This document shows positions 18,956-29,041 of a DNA stretch of 46,382 nucleotides, one piece after another. The position numbers and the translations under genes were made by a program. The notes under the pieces were generated by a model. That model saw only the letters and a list, made by a program, of their open reading frames with translations. It ran no database searches and was not told where the DNA came from. The stretch spans positions 1-46,382 of the forward strand of contig JAJZWV010000026.1 of assembly GCA_021846505.1 (NCBI GenBank), in the 5' to 3' direction. This stretch comes from Bacillota bacterium (GTDB taxonomy: Bacteria; Bacillota; Sulfobacillia; Sulfobacillales; JAIMBI01). Within the stretch, counting starts at the first letter, position 1. Each line of letters starts with the position of its first letter.

Positions 18956-19446
18956 CGGCTTCAGTCTCCCCTCTCATGGTGCACTCCCCTTTCATGGCGC
19001 ACACCTAAAATCGGACCCCTGGGGTCCGCTGAGGCGACGCATGATGGGGAGGAGGACGAGCAAAAGCCTAGCTATCCAATGGCAGTGACCCTCCTGTCTC
19101 AAGGGCAAATCGTGCTGCATCCCAGCATACCAAACCGCTGCGGTGGCGCGGCCGCCAGCGTCTGGAGCACTCCGGGCCCCTTTCCCGCCAGCGCCAAGAC
19201 GCTAGCGCACGGCTCTGCCTGGGCTCGGCACCGACGCCTGGGATCTCAGCCCATCTTGCCGACGCAGCGCAGCGGAAGCAGCGATCACGCCAGCCAGAAC
19301 CTCGCCGGGGTGGCGAAGCAGCGAGGCGCTGCAGGCCCTGGACACGGCACAGCGGCAATGGCGGCGCCTGCACGGCGGTCCTCGCGCGCAGACGTCCCCA
19401 ATCTTCAGATCACGCATGTTTTCACTGTGGGATGCGTCCGCACGGG
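18956..19446. other. Divergent intergenic region upstream of the MFS gene
   Basis: About 490 bases between the minus-strand MFS gene and the promoter of the M-box locus. It holds the palindrome at 19012-19028 and the duplicated CCATGARAGGGGAG block at about 18969-19000. The rest shows no recognisable gene. Confidence 0.4.
19012..19028. promoter_or_regulatory. 17-bp perfect palindrome upstream of MFS gene
   Basis: CGGACCCC-T-GGGGTCCG is a perfect palindrome 57-73 bases upstream of the MFS start. Size and placement fit a dimeric repressor operator, for example for a TetR/MarR-type drug regulator, but no regulator gene is adjacent. A structural hairpin is the alternative. Confidence 0.35.
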
Positions 19447-19475
19447 TTGACACGCGGGGAGCAGCCGCGTACACT
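19447..19475 (+). promoter_or_regulatory. Sigma-A promoter of the M-box locus
   Basis: TTGACA (19447-19452), a 17-base spacer, then TACACT (19470-19475). The -35 is perfect and the -10 matches four of six. Transcription would start near 19482, just before the M-box aptamer. Confidence 0.75.
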
Positions 19476-19497
19476 AGGGGTGGCTGAAATAGCAAAG

Positions 19498-19666
19498 GGT
19501 CCTCGTTAGGCGAGGCGTCGGCATCAACACAGGCCACTGCTCCGACCCGTCGAAAGACGCTCACGCGCAGACCAGAAATTGCCGGATTAAGGCTTTTTCC
19601 GAAGTGGCTGAATCTCAAGGGAGATTCTCACGTGGTGCCGTGCTGAAGCTCAACCAGGGGGGACAG
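19498..19666 (+). ncRNA. M-box (ykoK) magnesium riboswitch aptamer
   Basis: The order of conserved blocks matches the M-box: CTCGTTAGGCGAGGC (19502-19516), CCACTGC (19534-19540), GTCGAAAGACGC (19549-19560) and GTGCTGAAGCTC near the 3' side (19640-19651). The closing stem is GTCCTC (19499-19504) with GGGGGGAC (19657-19664). That 3' arm can instead pair with TGTCCTCC at 19678-19685, which is the left arm of the terminator. With Mg2+ the aptamer stem should form and free the terminator; without it the antiterminator forms. This is the established M-box mechanism, and the competing pairings are visible here. Confidence 0.9.
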
Positions 19667-19678
19667 CGTATTTTGCGT

Positions 19679-19706
19679 GTCCTCCGGCGTGTCGGAGGAC
19701 TTTTTT
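19679..19706 (+). terminator. Riboswitch-controlled intrinsic terminator
   Basis: GTCCTCCG (19679-19686), loop GCGTGT, CGGAGGAC (19693-19700), then six T. This is an 8-bp perfect stem with a U-tract, directly downstream of the M-box aptamer and overlapping the antiterminator arm. Confidence 0.9.
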
Positions 19707-19739
19707 CATGCCTGTGGCTTGCAGAAGGAGGCGATCCGG

Positions 19740-19823
19740 GTGAGTGCGGACCCTAGCGATAGTCACTGTCCATGTGGTTTTCCGGCACACGTACTATGCT
19801 GCGCTGACCCGGGTGGCTGCTAG
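19740..19823 (+). CDS. Small Cys-rich ORF (27 codons) between riboswitch and transporter
   Basis: GTG 19740 follows an excellent AAGGAGG site about 8 bases upstream and the frame ends at TAG 19823. The 27-residue product has five cysteines arranged as CPC, then CC, then a C-terminal GGC, and little hydrophobicity. It lies between the M-box terminator and the transporter. It could be a leader peptide giving a second level of control (as mgtL does for mgtA in Salmonella) or a small metal-binding protein. Only the ribosome binding site and position support it. Confidence 0.4.
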   Translation: MSADPSDSHCPCGFPAHVLCCADPGGC

Positions 19824-19865
19824 CCCAGTGCTGGCCCTCCGGGCGGGTGCTCGGGAGGGATTGCG

Positions 19866-21203
19866 ATGGGGAAGAATTCTGCCGCGATGCTGTGGGAAGA
19901 AGGGGCGCGCCTGCGCGCTGAAGATAAAGCGCGGGCGGCGGCGCTGCGTCAGTCCCCGCGCCTGCTGAAGCGGTTTCTGCTGCTGATTACCTTGCTGGGC
20001 CCAGGGATCTTGGTCATGATCGCGGACAATGACGCGGGCGGCGTCATTACCTACGCCCAGACTGGGGCCGCGTACGGGCTGGGGTTTTTCGTGCCCGCGC
20101 TGGTGGTGGGCGGCATCATCGCATTTCTGGTCCAGGAAATGACGGTGCGGCTTGGCGCCGTGACCCATCGGGGCCACGCCGAGATGATTTGGGGACGGTA
20201 TGGGGAGTTTTGGGGATGGTTTTCCCTCATTGACCTGGTGCTGGCCAACACCCTGACCTTGATCACCGAGTTCATCGGCATCACCATTGGGATGTCGGTG
20301 TTTGGCGTGCCGCCGGTGCTGAGCGCGCTCGGGGGACTGGCGGTCGATGCCGGGATCTTGCTGGTGCTGCGCTACCGTGCCTGGGAGCGCGTCTCGCTGT
20401 GGATTGCCGCTGGCAACCTGGTCTTTGTGCCGCTGGCTCTGATGGCGCATCCCCAGTGGGGGCGGGTCGCGGCCGCCTTTCAGCATTGGTCGGTCCCGGG
20501 GGGGTGGTCGGCGGCATTTCTCTTTGTGGTGCTGGCGAACTTCGGAACGACCATCGCGCCTTGGATGCTGTTCTTTCAGCAGTCGTCGGTGGTCGACAAG
20601 GGGCTGACGGTGGCAGATGTGCGGCATGGCCAGCTCGACACCGCGCTCGGGTCGCTGGCTATGGTGCTCGTCGCTGTGGCGATTGTGGTTCTCACCGGAA
20701 GTCTCGCATTTGGGCACCCCGGCTCCCAAAACTATGACATCCAGCAAATACTGGCGGTCGTCGGCCACAAGCTCGGGCTCACCGGCGAAAGCCTCCTCGC
20801 CCTGGGCCTGGTCGAAGCCGGCACGATTGCGGCCATTGCTCTGACGGCAAGCACGGCCTGGGCGACGGGTGAGGCGTTTGGCTGGCCCCGCAGCATTAAC
20901 TTGCCGGTGCGGCAGGCGTGGCGGTTTTATCTGCCTGGCCTGGCCAGCGCCGGGATCGCCGCCGGCATTGTGCTCATTCCCCAAGCACCCTTGGGGTTTC
21001 TCAACTTGACGGTCCAAGTGCTCGCCTCCATCTTCATGCCCGCCGCGCTGCTGTTTTTGCTGCTGCTGCTCAATGACCGCGAAATCATGGGGCGGCACGT
21101 CAACAAGCCGTGGCAAAACGGCGCCGCGATGGCCATCGTGGGGCTCTTGGTGGTGCTCAGCGGCCTGTACGGGCTCTCGGTGGTATTTCCCAGCCGGCTT
21201 TAG
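19866..21203 (+). CDS. NRAMP-related Mg2+ transporter (NRMT type)
   Basis: 445 residues with 11 membrane helices of the NRAMP fold, starting at ATG 19866 with GGGAGGG upstream. The helix-1 metal motif is DNDAGG (54-59) instead of the NRAMP DPGN. The helix-6 MPH motif is replaced by APW (231-233), so the methionine that favours Mn2+/Fe2+ and excludes Mg2+ is absent. NRAMP-related magnesium transporters described from clostridia share these changes and are often under M-box control, as this gene is. Expected role: Mg2+ uptake across the cytoplasmic membrane when cytoplasmic Mg2+ falls. Confidence 0.88.
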   Translation: MGKNSAAMLWEEGARLRAEDKARAAALRQSPRLLKRFLLLITLLGPGILVMIADNDAGGVITYAQTGAAYGLGFFVPALVVGGIIAFLVQEMTVRLGAVTHRGHAEMIWGRYGEFWGWFSLIDLVLANTLTLITEFIGITIGMSVFGVPPVLSALGGLAVDAGILLVLRYRAWERVSLWIAAGNLVFVPLALMAHPQWGRVAAAFQHWSVPGGWSAAFLFVVLANFGTTIAPWMLFFQQSSVVDKGLTVADVRHGQLDTALGSLAMVLVAVAIVVLTGSLAFGHPGSQNYDIQQILAVVGHKLGLTGESLLALGLVEAGTIAAIALTASTAWATGEAFGWPRSINLPVRQAWRFYLPGLASAGIAAGIVLIPQAPLGFLNLTVQVLASIFMPAALLFLLLLLNDREIMGRHVNKPWQNGAAMAIVGLLVVLSGLYGLSVVFPSRL

Positions 21204-21228
21204 AGAGTTTACAGAGGAGGTGCCACGC

Positions 21229-21402
21229 GTGAGCAAGAAGCGCGACCCCGTGCTGACGGTATTGGACTCCGAGGAGGCGCCGGTCTCCCTGACGCGAATC
21301 ACCCCGCCCCGCAGCATTCGCATCGTATTTTGGGGGCTGCGGGTGTACATCGCGCTGATGGTAGCTCTCGTCATTCTCGGGTTTGTGCGAGGGATGCACT
21401 GA
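21229..21402 (+). CDS. 57-residue single-pass membrane protein after the Mg2+ transporter
   Basis: GTG 21229 follows AGAGGAGGTG, a strong ribosome binding site, 25 bases after the transporter stop. The product has a charged N-terminal half (residues 1-30) and one C-terminal helix (about 36-54). I recognise no family. The tight spacing and shared M-box leader suggest a small accessory or regulatory subunit of the transporter. Confidence 0.7.
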   Translation: MSKKRDPVLTVLDSEEAPVSLTRITPPRSIRIVFWGLRVYIALMVALVILGFVRGMH

Positions 21403-21567
21403 GGCCCTCCACTCTCCCGATCCGGCAGGCGGCCCCAGATACCCGACCTCAGAGGCGCTGAGGCGGAGCATCCGGCGCACCCTCCCACGCGGCCGCTGCC
21501 GGCCGGTGCACTGCGTGTGGCGCACGGGCGGCCATGCACAAGACCGGCACCCCACCCGTGCCGCCCA

Positions 21568-22457
21568 CTAGGGACCTCCCCGCTGGCTGCGGGAGCGCGC
21601 GGCCCGCGGCCACTGGCGGGGATGGGCGTGCGGGCGCATCGTCAGATACAAGCGCCCCCACCCGTTCGGCGTGACCGACGCGACGGGCGCCTCCCGGTCC
21701 AATTGGAGCGGGTAAAGGGCGCGCACCAGCTGCGCCGGCGTGAAAATTCCGAGGAGGGCCCGCTTGAGCGGAAGCGCCGGGTCGACCAGGGCGCTTTCCA
21801 AGAACGCCCGATACCCATCCACCCACTCGGGGGGAGATCGGGGGAGGGACGCCGCTCGAGCACGATCGCCGCGGCGTCGACCGTGGGGGGAGGGACGAAC
21901 GAGGAGGGCGACACGTGCCGCTCCCAGATAAGAGCAAACCACGTGTGCCAGGTGATAATCTCCGGGTCGGATGCGGGGCACCGCGTGAACCGCCGGGCGG
22001 CGCCCCGCTCGATGAGCAGCACCGCCCGCGCTATCGGCGCCCGCGGATCCAGCAGCCGGCGGAGCACCGCCGTCGTGATGCCAAACGGGAGGTTAGCCAC
22101 CACGGTGAACGCGGACCGAGGGAGCGGCCACGCAAGAAAGTCCCGCTGTACCACGGTGACCGTCTCCCTTGTGTGGGTGCGCGTGCGCAAGCGCTCGGCC
22201 AGCACCGGATCACATTCGAGGGCCACGACCGCGCCCGCCCGGGCTGCCAGCGGAATCGTGAGGGCGCCGTCACCGGCGCCAATGTCCATCACCAAGTCGT
22301 GGGGGCCCACGCGAGCCCGGCGCACCATCCACCCCGCGATCCCGCGGTCGCGGAGAAAGTGCTGCCCGAGCGCGGCGCGGGCCCTGTCTGGCCGCCGGCC
22401 GTGGCCAAGCCTGGCATGGGGCGCATCTCGTCTACCTGATTGTGGCCGCCGTGACAT
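21568..22457 (-). pseudogene. Erm-type 23S rRNA adenine-N6 methyltransferase, frameshifted
   Basis: ATG 22457 has GGGAGGG upstream. The first ~205 residues contain GQHFLRD, DIGAGDGALT, ECD and NLPFGITTAVLRRLLD, typical of Erm/KsgA enzymes and closer to actinobacterial Erm. The C-terminal Erm segment (WVDGYRAFLESALVD, KRALLGIFTPAQLVRAL, WGRLYLTMRP) continues in another frame and ends at 21568. The switch falls between two G-rich runs at about 21828-21849. Intact, it would methylate A2058 and give macrolide-lincosamide-streptogramin resistance. A one-base indel explains the break; it may be a true pseudogene or an assembly error in a homopolymer. Confidence 0.8.
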
Positions 22458-25826: not shown

Positions 25827-27089
25827 CTAGAGCCAGTGGCCCATCTGGTCCCGCTTGGCGGCTAGATAGCGCGCATTGCTTTCCCGGGGCGCCACCCGAA
25901 TAGGCACCCGTTCGACAATCGACAGGCCGTATCCTGCCAGCGCATAGTATTTTCTGGGGTTGTTGGTCAGCAGCCGGAGCTCCTTCACGCCGAGATCGGA
26001 CAAAATCTGGGATCCCACGCCATAGTCCCGCATATCCGCCGGGAAGCCGAGGGCCACGTTGGCGGCCACGGTGTCCATGCCTTGGTCCTGCAGGGCGTAG
26101 GCTCGAATCTTGTTGGCCAGCCCAATGCCGCGCCCTTCCTGGCGCATGTACAGCACCAGCCCGCGGCCCTCCGCCGCAATTTGGCGCAGCGCGGCGTCCA
26201 GCTGCTCCCCGCAGTCGCAGCGCTCCGACCCAAACACGTCGCCGGTGAGGCACTCAGAGTGTACGCGCACCAGCACCGGGCGGCCGTCCGCCACGTTTCC
26301 CTTGATGACCGCCAGATGCGTGAGGCCGGCCTCCGGCTCCAAGTACGCGCGGGCGGTGAACAGGCCGTAGCGCGTCGGCAGCTCGCTCTCCGCTCCCCGG
26401 ATGTACAATTGCTCGTGCTGCAGCCGATACCGAATGAGATCCGCAATGTGCATGACCGGCAGATGGTGCTGCTGGGCAAACTGCGCCAGTTCGGGCGCCC
26501 GCATCATGGTGCCGTCCTCCCGAAGAACCTCGCACACGATGCCGGCCGGCTGCCGCCCGGCCATCCGCGCTAAGTCGACCGCCGCCTCCGTGTGGCCCGG
26601 CCGCCTCAGCACGCCGCCTTCCTGGGCGCGCAGCGGGAAAATGTGCCCCGGCCGCACCAAGTCCGCCGGCCCGGCCTCCGGGTCAATCAGCACCTGGATG
26701 GTGCGAGCCCGGTCGGCTGCCGAAATGCCGGTGGTTACCCCCCGCTGGGCATCGACCGATACCGTGAACGCTGTGCGCATGGAATCCTGCGGCGCCGCCA
26801 CCATCTGGGGCAGCGCCAGCTGCTCCAGCCGCTCCGCGGTCATGGGCACGCAGATGAGCCCGCGGCCATACTGCGCCATGAAATTGATGGCGGCCGGAGT
26901 GACGGCATCGGCCGCCATTACCAAATCGCCTTCGTTTTCGCGCTCCTGGTCGTCCAGCACTACGGCCATGCCGCCGCCGCGAATGGCTGCCACCGCGGCG
27001 CTGACCGCGGCAATGCTTGCCTCCAGCGCGGCCCGATCCGCTCGGACCGCTTCGGATTCTTCTGGCAGGGTGTCTCTGGTGGCACTCAT
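25827..27089 (-). CDS. ribBA: Bifunctional DHBP synthase / GTP cyclohydrolase II
   Basis: 420 residues. The N-terminal dihydroxybutanone-phosphate synthase domain has DDQERENEGDLVMAAD (residues ~45-60). The C-terminal GTP cyclohydrolase II domain starts near 215 and has RVHSECLTGDVFGSERCDCG with the three zinc cysteines. It supplies both precursors of riboflavin. Its ATG overlaps the ribE stop by four bases. Confidence 0.95.
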   Translation of the reverse strand: MSATRDTLPEESEAVRADRAALEASIAAVSAAVAAIRGGGMAVVLDDQERENEGDLVMAADAVTPAAINFMAQYGRGLICVPMTAERLEQLALPQMVAAPQDSMRTAFTVSVDAQRGVTTGISAADRARTIQVLIDPEAGPADLVRPGHIFPLRAQEGGVLRRPGHTEAAVDLARMAGRQPAGIVCEVLREDGTMMRAPELAQFAQQHHLPVMHIADLIRYRLQHEQLYIRGAESELPTRYGLFTARAYLEPEAGLTHLAVIKGNVADGRPVLVRVHSECLTGDVFGSERCDCGEQLDAALRQIAAEGRGLVLYMRQEGRGIGLANKIRAYALQDQGMDTVAANVALGFPADMRDYGVGSQILSDLGVKELRLLTNNPRKYYALAGYGLSIVERVPIRVAPRESNARYLAAKRDQMGHWL

Positions 27090-27694
27090 GAAGGCACCTC
27101 CTCCGTGATGCGGTTCAAGGCGTACTTGCCCATCAGGTCGAACTCCAGGTTCACCCGGCGGCCCGGGGCCGCTTGGCCCAGCGTCGTGCGGGAGCGGGTG
27201 TGGGGAATCAGGGCGACTGCAAATCCTCGCGGCGTGAGGCGCACCACCGTCAGGGACACTCCGTTCACCGCGATGGAGCCCTTATCCACCACGAGGGGGC
27301 GGCCGGCGGCAGGCAGCGAGCACTCCAGCTGGACTGTCTCGCCTTCACCCAGGGGCTCCGCCGCCAGCACCACTCCCACCGTGTCCACATGGCCGGTTAC
27401 CACATGGCCGCCCAGGCGATCTCCCAGCCGGAGTGGGCGCTCCAAGTTGACAGCTTCGTCCACCGGGAGGTCCGGGAGCGACAGAGTGGTGACCGACATC
27501 GTCACCGGCGTCACGTCCGCCGAAAACTGGCCGTCGGTGTGGTCCACCACCGTCAGGCAGCACCCGTTGACGGCAATGCTGTCGCCGACGGCCAGCGTGG
27601 CAGACAGGGGGGTGTCGATGCTGAGGCGAGCGCCGTCGGGCGTCGGCACAAACGCTGCCACCACGCCGGTCGCCTCCACTAGTCCGGTAAACAT
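27086..27694 (-). CDS. ribE: Riboflavin synthase alpha chain
   Basis: 202 residues from ATG 27694, with AAGGAG upstream. It begins with the invariant MFTGLVEATG and has the two lumazine-binding repeats, marked by NGCCLTV in the first and NGVSLTV in the second. It dismutates two lumazine molecules into riboflavin. It overlaps ribD by 16 bases and ribBA by 4. Confidence 0.94.
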   Translation of the reverse strand: MFTGLVEATGVVAAFVPTPDGARLSIDTPLSATLAVGDSIAVNGCCLTVVDHTDGQFSADVTPVTMSVTTLSLPDLPVDEAVNLERPLRLGDRLGGHVVTGHVDTVGVVLAAEPLGEGETVQLECSLPAAGRPLVVDKGSIAVNGVSLTVVRLTPRGFAVALIPHTRSRTTLGQAAPGRRVNLEFDLMGKYALNRITEEVPS

Positions 27695-28824
27695 CTCGAC
27701 GCCAGCTCCTTCCACGACACTTCAAAGTATGCGTCCCAGCGCACATCCGGGCCGAGCCGCACCATCCGAGACTTGGCAAGGCGGGGGGCGTCTTGGAGCT
27801 GCGCCACCCCCGCGCCCCCCACGGGCCCCGGTGCGGGGCCACCCAGCAGCAGCGGGGCCCAATAGGCGCGCCAGGCGTCGGCGAGGCCGGCCGTGATGAA
27901 GGCGGCATGAATCGTGGGGCCGCCCTCCACCAGCACGGTGTACAGGCCGCGCTCCCCGAGATCTGCCAATACGGCGGCCAAATTGAGTCGGCCGGGCTCG
28001 GACTCATCCACCTGGACCACCTCGCCCCCGCGCGAGAACACCTGGCGCTCAAACTGCGGGGTGGTGCCGTGGCCGGTGTACACCAGCGTCGGGGCGCCCG
28101 CCCACCGCTGCTCACGCGGGTTCAGCACTCGAGCCGACGGTGCCAGCCGCCCGGCGCTGTCGAGCACCACACGCACGGGATCCCGCCCACCGCGGATGCC
28201 GCGGCAGGTGAGCAGCGGGTCATCGGCCAGCACCGTGCCAATGCCCACCAAGATGGCGTCAGCGGCGGAGCGCAGCCGATGAACGTCGGCCAGCGCCGCT
28301 GGGCCCGTCAGGTACTTGGACTGCCCGGCCACCGACGCGACTTTGCCATCGGCCGACACGGCGCTTTTCAACAGAACCCAGGGACGCCGGCGCACGGTCC
28401 AGGAAAAATACCCAGCATTTTGCTCGAGTGCCTCCTCGGCACCGTCGCCCACCTCCACCGCGAGCCCCGCCCGCCGCAGCACCTCGCCGCCGCCAGCAGC
28501 AGCGGCGTGTGGGTCCGGCAGGGCATACACCACGCGCGCCAGGCCCGCCGCCCGAATGGCATCCGTGCACGGCGGGGTGCGGCCGGTGTGGCGGCACGGC
28601 TCCAGCGTGACATACAGCGTGCCGCCGCGGGCGAGAGCGCCCGCTTGCTGGATCGCCAGCACCTCGGCATGCGGCTCTCCCGCGCGGTGGTGATACCCGC
28701 GTCCCACCGGGGCACCCGCGGCGCTGACAATGACCGCGCCCACCAGCGGATTGGGGTGGGTGCGTCCGATGGCGCGCCGCGCCCAGCGGAGCGCCTCTCG
28801 CATCGGTGCACTGGCGCTGGACAT
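27679..28824 (-). CDS. ribD: Bifunctional diaminohydroxyphosphoribosylaminopyrimidine deaminase/reductase
   Basis: 381 residues from ATG 28824, just after the riboswitch terminator; the open frame above it runs through the terminator and aptamer and is not coding. The deaminase domain has HAEVLA and PCRHTGRTPPC zinc motifs in its first ~75 residues. The reductase domain has LKSAVSADGKVA and VEGGPTIHAAF. It catalyses the second and third steps of riboflavin synthesis and is first in the order ribD-ribE-ribBA-ribH-small membrane protein. Confidence 0.93.
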   Translation of the reverse strand: MSSASAPMREALRWARRAIGRTHPNPLVGAVIVSAAGAPVGRGYHHRAGEPHAEVLAIQQAGALARGGTLYVTLEPCRHTGRTPPCTDAIRAAGLARVVYALPDPHAAAAGGGEVLRRAGLAVEVGDGAEEALEQNAGYFSWTVRRRPWVLLKSAVSADGKVASVAGQSKYLTGPAALADVHRLRSAADAILVGIGTVLADDPLLTCRGIRGGRDPVRVVLDSAGRLAPSARVLNPREQRWAGAPTLVYTGHGTTPQFERQVFSRGGEVVQVDESEPGRLNLAAVLADLGERGLYTVLVEGGPTIHAAFITAGLADAWRAYWAPLLLGGPAPGPVGGAGVAQLQDAPRLAKSRMVRLGPDVRWDAYFEVSWKELASRCLPD

Positions 28825-28839
28825 TCCACCACCCCCAAC

Positions 28840-28870
28840 AAAAAAGGCTCCCCCGGTCTTCGGGGGAACC
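28840..28870 (-). terminator. FMN riboswitch terminator
   Basis: On the minus strand GGTTCCCCCG, loop AAGAC, CGGGGGAGCC, then six T: a 10-bp stem with one mismatch and a U-tract. It lies between the FMN aptamer and the ribD start, as in transcription-attenuating riboflavin operons. Confidence 0.9.
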
Positions 28871-28900
28871 ACAGGAAAAGGCGCCCTTGACGGGCCGTCG

Positions 28901-29033
28901 CCTTCTCCCATCCAGACTGTACTGTCGGTGCCGGATTCTCACCGGCTCCTGCCTATTGGCTCGCGGACTTGACGCCTAAAGCGCATCACCGCCGATCCGG
29001 AATTGGGGTTGCCCCCTCACCGTGCCCCGAAGG
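28901..29033 (-). ncRNA. FMN riboswitch (RFN element)
   Basis: On the minus strand the conserved RFN blocks appear in order: CTTCGGGGC at the 5' end, ACGGTGAG, CCGGATCGGCGGT, AGTCCGCGAGC, then GGTGAGAATCCGG, CCGACAGTACAGTC and GGATGGGAGAAGG at the 3' end. The 5' CCTTC and 3' GAAGG pair to close the aptamer. FMN binding should stabilise it and let the downstream terminator form, shutting down the riboflavin operon. Confidence 0.95.
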
Positions 29034-29041
29034 TCGTACAC

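Follow-up and report, generated by a model that had tools for sequence, protein, structure and literature searches.

The DNA analysed here (the window, 46,382 nucleotides from a draft Bacillota genome of 119 contigs) probably carries a Mg2+ uptake operon in which two stacked Mg2+-responsive OFF switches control an NRMT-type transporter and its small partner protein. Four elements of this reading are inferred: the signal, the direction in which the second switch works, transport of Mg2+ and physical partnership. The locus runs from its promoter through a 57-aa ORF and fits 19447-21402 exactly, with the following features:

19447..19475, + strand: sigma-70-type promoter, TTGACA-17-TACACT, the only such site in 19300-21700
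19495..19668, + strand: M-box (ykoK leader) Mg2+ riboswitch aptamer, RF00380, 126.7 bits, model positions 1-169 of 169
19658..19685, + strand: antiterminator, 19658-19668 (3' strand of P1) paired with 19674-19685 (5' arm of the terminator), -16.9 kcal/mol
19679..19706, + strand: intrinsic terminator, GTCCTCCG..CGGAGGAC followed by TTTTTT; hairpin 19679-19700, -15.4 kcal/mol
19725-19731, + strand: Shine-Dalgarno sequence of the uORF, AAGGAGG
19730..19749, + strand: putative attenuator arm E1, covering the uORF start and pairing with E2 (minimum free energy fold; duplex -34.6 kcal/mol; swap test p=0.0028)
19740..19823, + strand: leader peptide uORF, GTG start, 27 aa, MSADPSDSHCPCGFPAHVLCCADPGGC (conserved N-terminus and third-position codon variation at 30 order-level loci)
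19799..19818, + strand: putative attenuator arm E2, within the last uORF codons, pairing with E1 or E3 (folding and swap test)
19833..19844, + strand: putative attenuator arm E3, pairing with E2 (-18.9 kcal/mol) or E4 (E2:E3 swap test p=5e-5)
19849..19859, + strand: putative attenuator arm E4, containing the transporter Shine-Dalgarno sequence GGGAGGG, 19853-19859 (E3:E4 swap test p=5e-5)
19866..21203, + strand: NRMT-type NRAMP-related transporter, 445 aa, ATG start, 11 transmembrane helices by predicted model; Mg2+ transport inferred
21229..21402, + strand: 57-aa small protein with one transmembrane segment, GTG start, Shine-Dalgarno sequence AGAGGAGG (21213-21220), no Pfam or NCBIfam family

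The initial annotation of this locus proposed a promoter, an M-box aptamer and competing antiterminator and terminator arms, and our searches recover all of them. The promoter (TTGACA at 19447-19452, a 17-nt spacer, TACACT at 19470-19475) is the one sigma-70-like site in a region for which shuffled sequence averages 0.4. The Rfam covariance model matches the aptamer on the forward strand over its full length, with an E-value of 3.5e-28 and a score far above the gathering cut-off of 44, and a whole-genome Rfam search gave no second M-box. The computed P1, antiterminator and terminator helices are mutually exclusive because the antiterminator uses the 3' strand of P1 together with the 5' arm of the terminator, and six T residues lie directly 3' of the terminator hairpin. 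Judged from the sequence, the layout is that of an ordinary OFF switch acting on transcription, with Mg2+-dependent folding and regulation inferred. At high Mg2+ the M-box would close P1 and leave no antiterminator, and the terminator would then halt transcription ahead of the uORF. An M-box is present at 24 of 29 related loci, and one of the remaining five is cut by a contig end.

The pairing of an M-box with an NRMT transporter is already known. The 2014 work on NrmT established that M-boxes control NRAMP-related Mg2+ transporters, usually alongside a gene for an MgtE N-domain protein (PMC4072509), in agreement with the annotation's statement that such loci are established in clostridia. The Clostridium acetobutylicum loci Ca_c0685 and Ca_c3329 likewise place an M-box with a terminator platform before such a transporter (PMC4072509). 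The annotation also mentioned two extra small ORFs that it did not recognise, and these are the real finding at this locus. They are absent from the 2014 description of M-box-NrmT, in which clostridial loci carry the MgtE-N-domain gene in their place and neither a leader-peptide attenuator nor a one-helix 57-aa protein is described (PMC4072509). Our literature search, which did not cover most subscription journals, found no description of the leader or of the small protein.

The transporter belongs to the Nramp family (Pfam PF01566), and its closest solved relative is EleNRMT, which scores 184 bits where the best Mn-type MntH reaches 48. NRMTs are defined by DxxG in helix 1 and TxxA/T in helix 6, replacing DxxN and A/CxxM (PMC8806188), and the alignment gives the signature DxxG-TxxA here, with D56-x-x-G59 in helix 1 and T228-x-x-A231 in helix 6. 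The proton-path histidines of helix 6b are replaced by W233 (the first His) and Q238, at which EleNRMT has Trp and Asn; E135 and Q384 are retained. In a maximum-likelihood tree, E. coli MntH and ScaDMT separate from all other rows with 100/100 support, and the transporter and EleNRMT fall on the same side of this split, apart from the Mn-type Nramps. Long branches leave finer placements unsure. The AlphaFold model (pLDDT 88.8) contains 11 transmembrane helices by its helix list, and its top Foldseek matches are both EleNRMT structures (7qia/7qji; E 1.9e-19, 31% identity). EleNRMT thus shares the fold and the DxxG-TxxA site, but it is only about 30% identical to the transporter, and the small partner protein is a feature of the locus studied here.

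These observations support assignment to the NRMTs and not to the Mn/Fe Nramps. The motif changes from which the annotation had argued for a magnesium-type protein are present (DNDAGG at residues 54-59, APW at residues 231-233), and alignment scores, tree, site signature and Foldseek agree with that reading. Clustering with Mn2+/Fe2+ NRAMPs, part of what was named in advance as refuting it, is not seen. Mg2+ transport itself remains an inference: one NrmT relative tested in 2014 behaved as a Mn2+ transporter and not as a good Mg2+ transporter, and the authors suggested that an M-box could usefully mark Mg2+ specificity (PMC4072509).

The same genome encodes two further proteins of this type. 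A paralog on contig 67 (L002, 1336-2664) is 44% identical and has an altered metal site, with ENDAPS in helix 1 and ATITPW in helix 6 (DxxS/AxxT); the ORF downstream of it ends in a diverged copy of the one-helix small protein (MLWGLRAYVVFMAVVVAVQVAHSFH). A third Nramp-type protein on contig 7 (L003, 1378-2592) has DxxG in helix 1 and NAVAPW (NxxA) in helix 6, possibly another change in metal selectivity, to go by its sequence. No M-box was found at either paralog locus and no leader peptide ORF was seen in the sequence ahead of them, nor was a small one-helix partner seen at L003.

The 57-aa protein has one membrane segment, identified by eye, and a conserved C-terminal half, FWGLRxYI..M..LV..GF.RG.H. 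It matched no Pfam family and, except for one weak match by a single member, no NCBIfam family. Homologues follow the orthologous transporters of the order, and diverged homologues follow the 44%-identical transporter paralogs, including the M-box-less paralog of this genome. A scan of 84,980 species genomes that was blind to the neighbouring gene found 68 small-protein loci, each of the 68 with an NRMT-type coding sequence immediately before it. In two of them (L096 and L110) this sequence is only fragmentary, and a few others are cut by contig ends. Both fragmentary cases are Acidithiobacillus ferrianus, where the small protein is present and the NRMT frame matches in part; these are possibly decayed or frameshifted copies. 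Among 299 genomes drawn evenly from the phylum, the small protein occurs in two, both of this order. The named hosts are Sulfobacillus, Alicyclobacillus, Acidithiobacillus, Acidiphilium, Acidocella and Acidiferrobacter, all of them acidophiles, and the rest are MAGs.

This linkage is strong evidence that the 57-aa protein is a dedicated partner or regulator of these transporters, with physical partnership inferred. The two roles are harder to separate. In Salmonella, the 30-aa MgtR and the 28-aa MgtU deliver MgtC and MgtB to the protease FtsH (PMC8092293), and the 57-aa protein could be a co-inherited regulator of this kind, such as a protease adaptor, and not a transporter subunit. We regard this as a serious possibility, though less likely than not. 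Nothing decisive stands against it: the strict linkage, which extends to the 44%-identical paralogs, fits a subunit or a regulator.

The second small ORF lies between the terminator and the transporter, and an ORF is found at this place in 30 of 30 loci of the same order; loci fetched later have it too. It encodes 24-48 aa across the order, with the consensus M-S-[T/S/P]-D-P-G-G-H over the 30 loci. Asp occupies position 4 in 29 of them and Pro follows at position 5 in 28, and P5 and G6-G7 rank among the most conserved residues. The peptide of the window is among the more diverged members (DPSDS). For codons 4-7 the mean pairwise difference is 0.034, 0.094 and 0.477 at codon positions 1, 2 and 3, and in-frame differences comprise 591 synonymous and 192 non-synonymous changes, against 36/775 and 168/643 in the other frames. 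Differences are mainly third-position and synonymous in the uORF frame only, and the peptide is therefore under selection, which is confined to its first eight or nine residues. Two other explanations of this conservation were rejected. A conserved RNA element at the uORF start, in place of a peptide, fails because differences pile up at third positions in this frame only, and an internal Shine-Dalgarno sequence acting as a pause signal (GGAGG within the Pro-Gly-Gly codons) fails because DPGD variants lack GGAGG.

The leader is not tied to the riboswitch. It is kept at four loci where no M-box was found (L028, L030, L031 and L032), at least at the first of which a TTGACA/TACAAT promoter lies directly 5' of the uORF. 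Other leaders start M-D-S-x-P or M-[DE]-x-D-P. Outside the order, those of Alicyclobacillus and related loci with an M-box start MDSSPSR, MDSGPGSR and similar, and in Acidithiobacillus several M-box-less loci show MDSDPS, MDSHPR, MDSHPN or MDSYPG. With the criteria used, no leader was found upstream of alphaproteobacterial NRMTs or of some Acidithiobacillus copies (L088, L104). A degenerate DNA pattern for the leader, applied across the order, returned mostly background and was used only to see recurrent full matches; these sit ahead of NRMT genes, and the leader was found nowhere else.

Folding of the region between the uORF start and the transporter gives two alternative states. An E3:E4 hairpin (19835-19859, -17.2 kcal/mol) holds the transporter Shine-Dalgarno sequence in its 3' arm. 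Its 5' arm, E3, can alternatively pair with the last uORF codons, E2, which also pair with the uORF start region, E1, so that E1:E2 together with E3:E4 is set against E2:E3. This arrangement is read as a four-arm attenuator in which 1:2 with 3:4 would be OFF and 2:3 would be ON, the switch direction being inferred.

To examine co-variation, fixed windows around the four arms were taken from 23 loci, with near-duplicates dropped, and pairing with a locus's own partner was compared with pairing to partners from other loci over 20,000 permutations. Swapping partners weakens E2:E3 and E3:E4, both beating 20,000 of 20,000 permutations, and also weakens E1:E2; for the controls E1:E3 and E1:E4 the effect does not reach significance (p about 0.13). 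Significance of E2:E4 is expected because E2 and E4 both complement E3, and this pair is not counted as support. The test does not fully remove shared GC content and base composition; within that limit, the competing pairings co-vary. A different hairpin (CCATCACCCG..CGGGTGATGG, with variants carrying compensatory changes) comes after the leader in Acidithiobacillus. At L097, L099, L109 and L111 this conserved hairpin, with loop GGTCCTC, lies far upstream of the transporter start, in some cases with a T-rich tail, which suggests a transcriptional version of the attenuator.

We propose that the two switches act in series at high Mg2+, on transcription and then on translation. Transcripts that escape the terminator would carry the leader peptide, whose first residues (M-S-x-D-P) would be the sensor. 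A ribosome reading the uORF to its end would mask E2, E3:E4 would form and the transporter Shine-Dalgarno sequence would be hidden. A ribosome that paused or dropped off at the N-terminal acidic-Pro stretch would instead have opened E1:E2 and left E2 free, so that E2:E3 could form and the transporter be translated, yielding an NRMT that acts with its 57-aa one-helix partner. The most likely trigger is low Mg2+, which would destabilise ribosomes at such sequences as it does for MgtL and MgtQ.

A close functional parallel is mgtQ of the Salmonella mgtCBRU operon, likewise a short ORF with a strong Shine-Dalgarno sequence, early acidic residues and a Pro, with alternative stem-loops 1:2/3:4 and 2:3 in which 3:4 hides the transporter RBS, an arrangement demonstrated by experiment (PMC8092293). 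Acidic residues near the start of mgtQ hinder its translation and thereby expose the RBS of mgtB, and its conserved Pro acted via RNA pairing, not as a residue (PMC8092293). However, mgtQ encodes 8 aa, lies inside an operon before a P-type ATPase and has no M-box; the uORF described here encodes 24-48 aa in the order and lies in a 5' leader, behind a riboswitch and before an NRMT. By analogy the attenuator may work like mgtQ; the peptides are too short for homology or membership to be claimed. MgtL of enterobacterial mgtA offers a second likeness, with an N-terminal acidic/Pro motif, EPDP, that senses Mg2+ by ribosome drop-off when Mg2+ is low (PMC11282234), but it acts through Rho-dependent termination, and a sequence relationship to the uORF cannot be shown. 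In Mycobacterium tuberculosis, the pe20 Mbox is likewise followed by a conserved uORF, rv1805A; there the Mbox is itself a translational switch for the uORF, acting with Rho (PMC12810186), whereas the locus here has an intrinsic terminator and a uORF with its own attenuator.

Mg2+ sensing through ribosome destabilisation is the likeliest reading of the leader because of the N-terminal position of the motif, its conserved acidic-Pro pair and the gene controlled. It falls short of certainty because many members have a single acidic residue and variants of the MDSHP type exist. Work on MgtL and EttA-dependent genes stresses two acidic residues (PMC11282234). Most Sulfobacillus-type leaders have one before the proline, which by this analogy counts against the mechanism; MDSDP, MEGDP, MEADP and MDGDP have a pair, and MDSHP, MDSYP, MDSGP and MSSDAG also occur. 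Further points weigh against it: E1:E2 in the window is so stable that the uORF start may be poorly used, direct E2:E4 pairing would blur the switch logic, the peptide of the window is one of the more diverged, and the Pro of mgtQ works by pairing and not as a residue.

The main rival is a genuine leader attenuator that senses something else, namely uncharged tRNA (Pro, Gly or His), low cytoplasmic pH or a ribosome-stalling ligand, with tRNA charging and pH foremost. The high conservation of P5 and G6-G7 speaks for it, as do the acidophily of every named host genus of the small-protein module and the Salmonella leaders mgtP and mgtM, which respond to charged tRNA-Pro and to ATP (PMC8092293). 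We nevertheless hold it unlikely, if far from negligible: there is one conserved Pro only, without the single-amino-acid run typical of classical tRNA-sensing leaders, all leaders found precede NRMT genes, and the M-box-less loci would be left without a Mg2+ sensor.

A simpler possibility is that the uORF senses nothing and merely couples translation, its ribosome opening the hairpin or re-initiating at the transporter. The strong Shine-Dalgarno sequences would suit such coupling, as would the distance of only 30-56 nt from uORF stop to transporter start at most loci, but it leaves the selection on N-terminal residues unexplained, and given the co-varying E2:E3 pairing, for which it also has no explanation, we give it little credence. 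That this is an ordinary M-box-NrmT operon with two incidental small ORFs is scarcely tenable: an M-box ahead of nrmT is established (PMC4072509), but both ORFs are conserved over an order and, in related form, across phyla, and the codon-level selection on the uORF and the 68/68 linkage of the small protein already contradict it.

If Mg2+ sensing by both switches is right, control of one transporter gene rests on two readings of Mg2+, a direct one by an aptamer and one by a ribosome by way of leader-peptide stability, a combination for which no description was found in the literature searched. Sensing of the MgtL/MgtQ type, so far described for Proteobacteria in that literature, would extend to a Bacillota order and to Acidithiobacillus. 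The one-helix protein family, with its single clear partner, would provide a testable lead on the assembly or control of SLC11-type Mg2+ transporters in cells that live at very low pH. A bolder proposal, which we offer only tentatively, is that the M-[SD]-x-[D/x]-P leader senses Mg2+ and has moved together with NRMT genes between Bacillota and the acidithiobacilli, and that in Sulfobacillus relatives it is stacked behind the M-box, placing two mechanistically different Mg2+ sensors, RNA aptamer and ribosome, on one gene. In this proposal acidophile NRMTs have the 57-aa protein as an obligate subunit, which may contribute, in trans, a twelfth helix that 11-helix NRMTs lack.

Elsewhere in the window, a gene on the reverse strand at 21642-22457, convergent with the transporter operon, encodes a ribosomal RNA adenine dimethylase (PF00398, KsgA/Erm type). 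An FMN riboswitch (RF00050, 87 bits) at 28897-29038 on the reverse strand precedes a riboflavin operon whose genes, read by eye, are ribD (27679-28911), ribE (27086-27715) and ribBA (25827-27089), an ordinary arrangement.
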